Part shown: positions 12,213 through 35,705 of the stretch, one piece after another
How the letters are laid out: each line of letters opens with the position of its first letter
Position numbering within the stretch: position 1 is the first letter of the stretch
NCBI GenBank assembly: GCA_017609105.1
Contig: JAFCEQ010000006.1
Location: 1 to 41,064 of the forward strand
Length of the DNA: 41,064 nucleotides
Origin: Candidatus Parvarchaeota archaeon
Lineage (GTDB): Archaea > Nanobdellota > Nanobdellia > JAFCGN01
Direction: 5' to 3'
Position numbers and translations under genes: made by a program
The notes under the pieces: generated by a model
What the model was told of the DNA's origin: nothing
What the model saw: the letters and a program-made list of their open reading frames with translations, nothing else
Database searches by the model: none

Positions 12213-12533
12213 TTATTTTTTGGTGCTTATTTCTTTCAATAAGTTCTTGCCTTCTCCAGCATCAATAATTGCTAAAGCACTGCAAGGAACGCTTAAACCG
12301 CAAGCTTTTCCAAGATCATTCTTGCTTCCTACATTAGCGTAAGGTATTTTTTTTTCATCGCATAATAAAGGCAAATGCATTACAATTTCTTTTGGACTTA
12401 CATCCTCTGCTATTGCAACAAAAACAGCTTTCCCTCTTTCAACAGCTTTTGTTGTTTCATTTATTCCTTTTCTTATTTTTCCTGTGCTATTAGCGATTTC
12501 AATTAATTCTAAAACTTTTTTTTCTTCAACCAT
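12213..12533 (-). CDS. rpl7ae: ribosomal protein L7Ae (K-turn binding)
   Basis: [48 protein letters not shown]. Confidence 0.97.
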
Positions 12534-34210: not shown

Positions 34211-34723
34211 ATGATTGATTATTATTTTGAAGAAACAACAAGAGAAATCATAGAATTTGCGAGAAAATTAAAATTAGAGATTAAAGAAGCAAGAATGATT
34301 AAAGCAAGAGATATTAAAGAATTAAAAAAGAAAGTTAAACAATTAAAAGAAAAAACTCTTTTTTTATCTTCAACTAATTATAAATTAAATCGTTATGCTG
34401 TTGAGAATAAGTTAGTGAATGGTTTAATTAATATAGAGCTTCATCCAAAACCAGATTTCACTCATTTCCGCAGAGCAGGGCTTGATGATGTTCTTGCAAA
34501 GTTCATGAAAGAAAACAATGTCATGTACGTTATTAATTTTAATCTTTTATTAAATCCTCCGCAAAATTTTGAAAAGTTTTTAATTCTTGGAAGAATGTTA
34601 CAGAATTATCGTATTGCTAAAATAAATGAAACTGAAGTAAAAGTAGTGAGTGGAGCAGAAAAAATACTTGAATTAAAAAGCAAAGAAGTTCTTAAAGCAT
34701 TTGAGAGAATATTAAAAAAATAA
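34211..34723 (+). CDS. rnp3: RNase P protein Rpp30/Rnp3
   Basis: PHP/TIM-like; NPPQNFEKFLILGRMLQNYRIAKI...VVSGAEKILELKS; INIELHPKPDFTHFRRAGLDDVLAKFM. Confidence 0.85.
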   Translation: MIDYYFEETTREIIEFARKLKLEIKEARMIKARDIKELKKKVKQLKEKTLFLSSTNYKLNRYAVENKLVNGLINIELHPKPDFTHFRRAGLDDVLAKFMKENNVMYVINFNLLLNPPQNFEKFLILGRMLQNYRIAKINETEVKVVSGAEKILELKSKEVLKAFERILKK

Positions 34724-34844: not shown

Positions 34845-35072
34845 ATAGTTAAATTTGAGACAATAGAATCAAAAGAATTTAAGTACGGCAGAAACAATTT
34901 TATTGAAATAAGCAGAAAAAAAGTTGTTGATGTCGAGAATGAAAATGAGTTTCTTCAAATAAGCAAGGGATTCTATGACCAACAAGAAAATAAGAGATAC
35001 AAAGGAGGGGTTGGCTTGCCAGACAATCCTGAATTAAAAGCATTTCTTATTGAAGCACTTAGAGAACTATGA
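34845..35072 (+). CDS. small conserved-looking protein, apparent AUA start, 75 aa (absent from ORF track)
   Basis: Frame read by eye: (ATA)VKFETIESKEFKYGRNNFIEISRKKVVDVENENEFLQISKGFYDQQENKRYKGGVGLPDNPELKAFLIEALREL; SD-like AAAGGTGAT 5 nt upstream; in-frame TGA at 34836; no ATG/GTG and only a late TTG. Confidence 0.7.
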   Translation: MVKFETIESKEFKYGRNNFIEISRKKVVDVENENEFLQISKGFYDQQENKRYKGGVGLPDNPELKAFLIEALREL

Positions 35073-35136
35073 ACAAATAATTAAGAACAAGTTTTTTATT
35101 TTTTTTATAAATTTTTTTTTAATAATTTTTAGAATT

Positions 35137-35248
35137 AATAAGAAGAAGAGTCTTGCGAACCAACCAATCAAGTTTCCCTGAGAGGCATATCACAAAAACG
35201 ACTTCCGAGGAAATCATTTTTGCTAGGTTTTCGCACTCTTCTCTTATT
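35137..35248 (-). ncRNA. candidate structured RNA of unassigned family
   Basis: Terminal helix AATAAG-(bulge)-AGAAGAGT-(bulge)-GCGAA paired with TTCGC-ACTCTTCT-CTTATT; internal hairpin 35193-35222 whose A.C mismatches on + become G.U pairs on -. Confidence 0.5.
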
Positions 35249-35384
35249 AAAAAGAGTGATTTATATATAGTAATTCCATGTTTTTAAAGGTTATTAACCA
35301 AATTTTTTAACAAGATTTCATTCAATGCATTTACTGCCTTTCTTATCAAAAAACCTTAAAACTTTTCATTGCATAAATTAAAGC

Positions 35385-35705
35385 ATGACAAAACTTTCTT
35401 TTTCTGGAGAACGAATTGATGATTTTGAATTTAATAGGGTTCAACAAAAAATAATTAGTAAGATGAAAAGATTAAGCGATTTATTTAAAGATGTTGAAGA
35501 AATAAAATGCCATTTCAAGAACATACATTCTTCTGAAGAACATGATGGCAAAGTAGAGATATCTGTTAAACTTAAGAGCAAGAAAATTAATGAAACATTT
35601 AAGGCAATGGGATTTCAACCGCAATACGTTATTGACGAGATACTTAATGATGTTGAGAGGTTCGCTCTTGACCGAAAAGTTCAGTTTCCGCAAAAAAAGC
35701 GTTAG
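35385..35705 (+). CDS. hypothetical 106-aa protein, possibly HPF/RaiA-like fold
   Basis: Complete ORF; IKCHFKNIHSSEEHDGKVEISVKLKSKKINETFKAMGFQPQYVIDEILNDVERFAL has beta-beta-alpha layout. Confidence 0.6.
   Translation: MTKLSFSGERIDDFEFNRVQQKIISKMKRLSDLFKDVEEIKCHFKNIHSSEEHDGKVEISVKLKSKKINETFKAMGFQPQYVIDEILNDVERFALDRKVQFPQKKR

Follow-up and report, generated by a model that had tools for sequence, protein, structure and literature searches.

The stretch of DNA analyzed here (the window) comprises 41,064 nt of contig JAFCEQ010000006.1, from a Candidatus Parvarchaeota archaeon whose genome (G000) is represented by 688 kb in 49 contigs at 92% completeness. A preliminary description, made from the letters of this stretch, had proposed an unassigned structured RNA in the block 35137-35248, between two small hypothetical genes, and both of the directly flanking genes did prove to be without assignment. 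On one side, a 106-aa gene on the plus strand (35385-35705), divergent from the RNA, has no relative in Pfam or the PDB; on the other, an open frame of ~74 codons (~34848-35072, plus strand) matches no family. The weak matches of the 106-aa gene within the class include the C-terminal part of an apparent CBS-domain protein (L053). The ~74-codon frame has no ATG, GTG or TTG at its apparent beginning, and toward its 3′ end it is conserved in the sister species described below. Beyond it lies a plus-strand gene (34211-34723) for RNase P protein component 3 (p30 type), recognized by NCBIfam NF046108 at 3.4e-14, below the curated cut-off; this gene is missed by Pfam and is present in 42 of 55 relatives. 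The same window also carries an L7Ae family gene (PF01248, 5.3e-30) on the minus strand at 12240-12518.

The folded body occupies 35138-35247 and, read on the minus strand, corresponds to an RNA of ~120 nt. The end pairings of the preliminary description (AATAAG/CTTATT, AGAAGAGT/ACTCTTCT and GCGAA/TTCGC) and its inner hairpin were all found where it had placed them. The block stands out in composition, with a G+C content of 37-42% against 8-28% just outside it (minima of 8% and 18% on its two sides), and it is present as a single full-length copy in its own genome. Folding of both strands, which the preliminary description had suggested as a check, bore out its choice of strand: for 35130-35256 read on minus, the folding energy is -47.5 kcal/mol, compared with a mean of -24.8 over 200 shuffles, none of them as stable (z -6.87), whereas the plus strand reaches -33.6 kcal/mol (z -4.20). 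The minus-strand fold contains, besides the hairpin already noted, a second internal arm capped by a GAAA tetraloop, so that the whole forms a three-way junction of a closing stem and two arms (Table 1). It is this GAAA-loop arm (P4), rather than the hairpin picked out in the preliminary description (P3), that is the most conserved part of the element. We note also that the P1/P2 boundary (35152-35161 with 35226-35234, minus strand) resembles a relaxed bulge-helix-bulge, a type of substrate of the archaeal splicing endonuclease.

Table 1. Features of the minus-strand element and its inferred transcription unit (positions in the window)
Feature	Position	Strand	Remarks
P1 closing stem, 5′ strand	35235-35247	-	pairs with 35138-35151; in the sister species, three pairs changed on both sides and two on one side, all still paired
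P1 closing stem, 3′ strand	35138-35151	-	pyrimidine-rich
AAG bulge between P1 and P2	35152-35154	-	invariant in both species; unpaired in both folds
P2, 5′ strand, GCGA-AA-ACC	35226-35234	-	predicted in both folds; invariant
P2, 3′ strand, GGU-UCGC	35155-35161	-	predicted in both folds; invariant
P3 hairpin, CAAAAAUGAUUUCCUCGGAAGUCGUUUUUG	35193-35222	-	13 bp; minus-strand pairing survives changes of U-G to C-G and of C-G to U-G
P4 arm, GCC-UC-UCAGG-GAAA-CUUGA-UU-GGY, GNRA tetraloop	35163-35186	-	23 of 24 nt shared by the two species
Inferred transcript, ~122 nt	35137-35258	-	5′ end from box-A spacing
Candidate promoter box A, CTTTAAAAAC (CTTAAAAAC in the sister species)	35280-35289	-	conserved in both genomes

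Conservation in relatives, whose absence the preliminary description had named beforehand as grounds for abandoning its candidate, was found in one further genome from the genus (G001; Candidatus Parvarchaeota archaeon Meg22_810_Bin_165, JAFCGN010000006.1). There the element recurs at 86% identity as a syntenic ortholog (L002:1505-1622) with its structure conserved, including the three-way junction, and the two genomes share the gene order RNase P protein component 3 (p30), small unassigned gene, RNA, 106-aa gene, tRNA-Gln, Elp3. The sister element also folds better on the minus strand (z -5.89, with none of 200 shuffles folding as well) than on the plus strand (z -2.28). Identity, taken over 40 columns at a time, is highest in the P4 region (0.97) and drops to ~0.4-0.6 in the non-coding flanks on both sides.

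The differences between the two species respect the fold. Of the 41 consensus pairs, three have both partners replaced and five only one, and all 41 remain paired in both species; the sole change in P4 converts a G-U pair to G-C. The 11 substitutions at paired columns thus break no pair, where 4.75 breaks are expected when 11 substitutions are placed randomly on paired columns having the same starting base (simulated P of 5e-5, 1 of 20,000 trials), a test that rests on two sequences, so that its power to detect covariation is almost nil, and on a consensus structure derived from those same two sequences. P2 and most of P4 show no variation in this comparison; being invariant, P2 is neutral with respect to covariation. 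Read as plus-strand RNA, the consensus pairs contain four mismatches in the window and six in the sister species, and several of the changes retain an RNA wobble pair yet break the DNA palindrome. These pairing results support a minus-strand RNA, and the base-pair-preserving evolution that serves as a criterion for an autonomous structured ncRNA gene is present within the two sequences. A small coding gene was considered as well and rejected: the window has an open plus-strand frame of ~50 codons, which an indel of 2 nt puts out of register in the sister species, so that no reading frame is conserved across the element.

As far as sampled, the element seems to be confined to one DPANN genus. 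Searches with a covariance model across 282 genomes of the class and 377 of the phylum returned only the two genus members, under the stricter filters used for such large runs and with a model built from two close sequences. A pattern search with the 23-nt core, allowing three mismatches, found nothing outside these two members among 378 class genomes, and at up to three mismatches it found no second site on either strand of the two genomes themselves. Among the three genomes that represent the order, the covariance model likewise found nothing in the same-order genome G002 (87% complete), in which the p30 gene is followed by an apparent Pop5 and a proteasome subunit. Blastn against 55 relatives detected no distant homologs, an unfiltered covariance model found none in 28 p30-gene neighborhoods, and viral contigs contained none; a gapped pattern run across genome contigs gave 17 matches, of which that in the sister genome alone looked real. 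Two covariance-model matches in other genomes (G223 and G052, E 0.03-0.07) lacked the core motif and were taken as noise. The lack of a homolog in the 282 class genomes, the 377 phylum genomes or G002 argues against a role that is both general and essential.

The element also resembles no RNA family that we could name. At the gathering threshold no family of Rfam 15 matches it, in keeping with the preliminary description's opinion that it is not a tRNA, 5S rRNA, SRP RNA or RNase P RNA and with its proposal of an Rfam covariance-model search as a check; more permissive scans of both species gave sub-threshold noise alone. The models for archaeal RNase P RNA (RF00373) and archaeal SRP RNA (RF01857) have no match in the window over their gathering scores, and the true copies lie at G000:C19:3174-3491 (113.8 bits) and G000:C3:6088-6361 (145.6 bits), respectively. 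The idea of a minimal RNase P or SRP RNA, prompted by the proximity of the gene for RNase P protein 3, was dropped because these normal copies sit elsewhere. Two tRNA genes were matched in the window, neither of them at the element, and the search for tRNA and 5S rRNA gave nothing there. The sole family matched weakly over its full length on the RNA strand in both species was LOOT RNA (RF03000), at 20.2 bits in the window and 17.3 bits in the sister against a gathering score of 46.4 bits; with E-values of 0.098 and 0.49 (351-base searches) and many non-standard pairs in the alignment, it was taken as chance. A Y-RNA-like RNA was ruled out because no protein with the TROVE domain (PF05731) of a Y RNA partner occurs in G000, G001 or G002. 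We found no account of the element in the literature on structured RNAs in Parvarchaeota and DPANN archaea.

The surroundings of the element suggest how it might be transcribed. Its candidate box A (CTTTAAAAAC in the window, CTTAAAAAC in the sister species) is of the TTTAAA type and lies ~30 nt before the CACUC/UACUC that we take as the 5′ end, and the same spacing from box to 5′ end is seen in the same genome at the genes for RNase P RNA (CTTAAATA) and SRP RNA (CTTTAATAA). For comparison, Nanoarchaeum equitans is reported to have TTTAAA as its box A, located ~26 nt upstream of starts, and T-stretches as terminators (PMC3491384). Ahead of coding genes, the same type of box shows only a weak enrichment, at about -35 to -28, so the support for a promoter of the RNA's own is moderate. 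On the distal side, the P1 3′ strand continues in the sister species into a T-tract (CTCTTTTCTTTTTATTTTT; TTTTCTTTTTATTTTT) that could serve as a transcription terminator; the window species has a weak T-run there. Because of the box-A spacing and the pyrimidine-rich 3′ side of P1 with its T-tract, the box A would probably drive a minus-strand transcript from 35258 to ~35137, ending at that side of P1. The resulting leader CACUCUUUUU (window 35234-35258, minus strand) can pair with GAGAAGAGUG over 10 bp (9 bp in the sister), which would exclude P1; since the same pairing was reached by 145 of 5000 shuffled leaders (~3%) and by 160 of 3000 random stretches of the window, we do not claim a strand-exchange switch between leader and P1.

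Taken together, that a structured RNA of the minus strand exists here seems to us very probable, as the preliminary description had proposed; the fold beats shuffles, and no credible Rfam family accounts for it. What kind of RNA it is can be stated with less assurance, and we lean slightly toward an autonomous gene, present once and restricted to the genus, for a structured ncRNA of ~120 nt that acts in trans and is of the ribonucleoprotein RNA type. The element is divergent from the 106-aa gene and convergent with its neighbor on the other side, with no sense-strand gene close downstream; given such neighbors it is not the leader of any sense-strand gene and should act in trans. P4 is likely to be the functional core, judging from its conservation. 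In the mechanism we propose, the variable P1 and P3 would form a scaffold, and the invariant junction, the AAG bulge and the GAAA-capped P4 would present a contact surface for a protein or another RNA. Variable outer stems that keep their pairs around an invariant core are typical of RNAs that contact protein or fold on themselves, and this arrangement of variable stems around the junction, bulge and P4 makes a small ribonucleoprotein the likeliest working form, in which the RNA probably presents the invariant arm. A further step, that this is a new class of ribonucleoprotein-type RNA in one genus of genome-reduced DPANN archaea, whose arm binds a dedicated partner in a housekeeping or host-interaction role, is tentative, and we regard it as doubtful.

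The genomes of DPANN archaea are very small, and these archaea usually rely on other cells. A structured RNA gene that two such species retain at the same site, with its pairing under constraint, and that is lacking in the sampled relatives outside the genus, is a candidate for a lineage-specific RNA function; with its strand, ends and core arm, the element offers a defined, testable target, and it shows that RNAs of these lineages escape curated RNA libraries. It is new as a sequence family, and its kind, the orphan lineage-specific ncRNA, is already known: it resembles the lineage-restricted orphan structured ncRNAs that comparative genomics has brought to light (Weinberg et al. 2010, PMC2864571; intergenic ncRNAs of Pyrococcus abyssi, PMC3124441) in its intergenic position, conserved secondary structure and lineage restriction. 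It differs from those orphan ncRNAs in having no sequence or fold match in Rfam 15 and in being predicted from two genomes.

Among the other explanations, a base-pairing regulatory sRNA, which would expose a short seed to mRNAs and use its structure for stability alone, seems to us unlikely. Many archaeal sRNAs are intergenic, autonomous and lineage-restricted, and the element looks the same in all three respects; its invariant residues, however, are mostly paired (in P2 and P4) or held in the GNRA loop, leaving no open seed, and the core's want of a second site in the two genomes, noted above, also speaks against this use.

More improbable still is an aberrant guide RNA for modification, of the H/ACA or C/D type. 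The element shares with archaeal H/ACA guide RNAs a size class and a host that encodes Cbf5 and L7Ae, and some archaeal H/ACA RNAs are themselves atypical (PMC7991803). Yet the ACA box, under a definition that took no atypical variant box, is absent from the minus strand of 35137-35258, as are box C (RUGAUGA) and box D (CUGA) from these 122 nt, and neither species' fold shows the kink-turn or K-loop (tandem G.A beside a 3-nt bulge) above an open pseudouridylation pocket by which PMC7991803 defines the H/ACA type.

Little probability attaches to a processing substrate, in which the tRNA splicing endonuclease would cleave a relaxed bulge-helix-bulge and so release or circularize an inner P3-P4 RNA. 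The 4-bp GCGA/UCGC helix, with AAG bulged on one strand and AA on the other and with no difference between the two species, would fit; against it, the bulges measure 3 + 2 nt and not 3 + 3, there are no exons to join, and the site does not vary between species.

We give equally little credence to a plus-strand cis element, namely a 5′ UTR leader of the 106-aa gene, which begins 137 nt downstream of the element and for which the plus-strand fold in the window, itself better than shuffles, might be cited: the plus-strand fold is weak in the sister, the conserved structure contains the four and six plus-strand mismatches given above, and the stretch from RNA to gene is poorly conserved (0.38-0.68). 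Least probable is that there is no RNA at all and that a DNA inverted repeat or the remnant of a convergent terminator happens to fold well, for although inverted repeats are numerous in AT-rich genomes and the outer P1 is a low-complexity purine/pyrimidine stretch, P4, the most conserved part, is not of low complexity, no shuffle folds as well in either species, and several changes keep an RNA wobble pair at the cost of the DNA palindrome.
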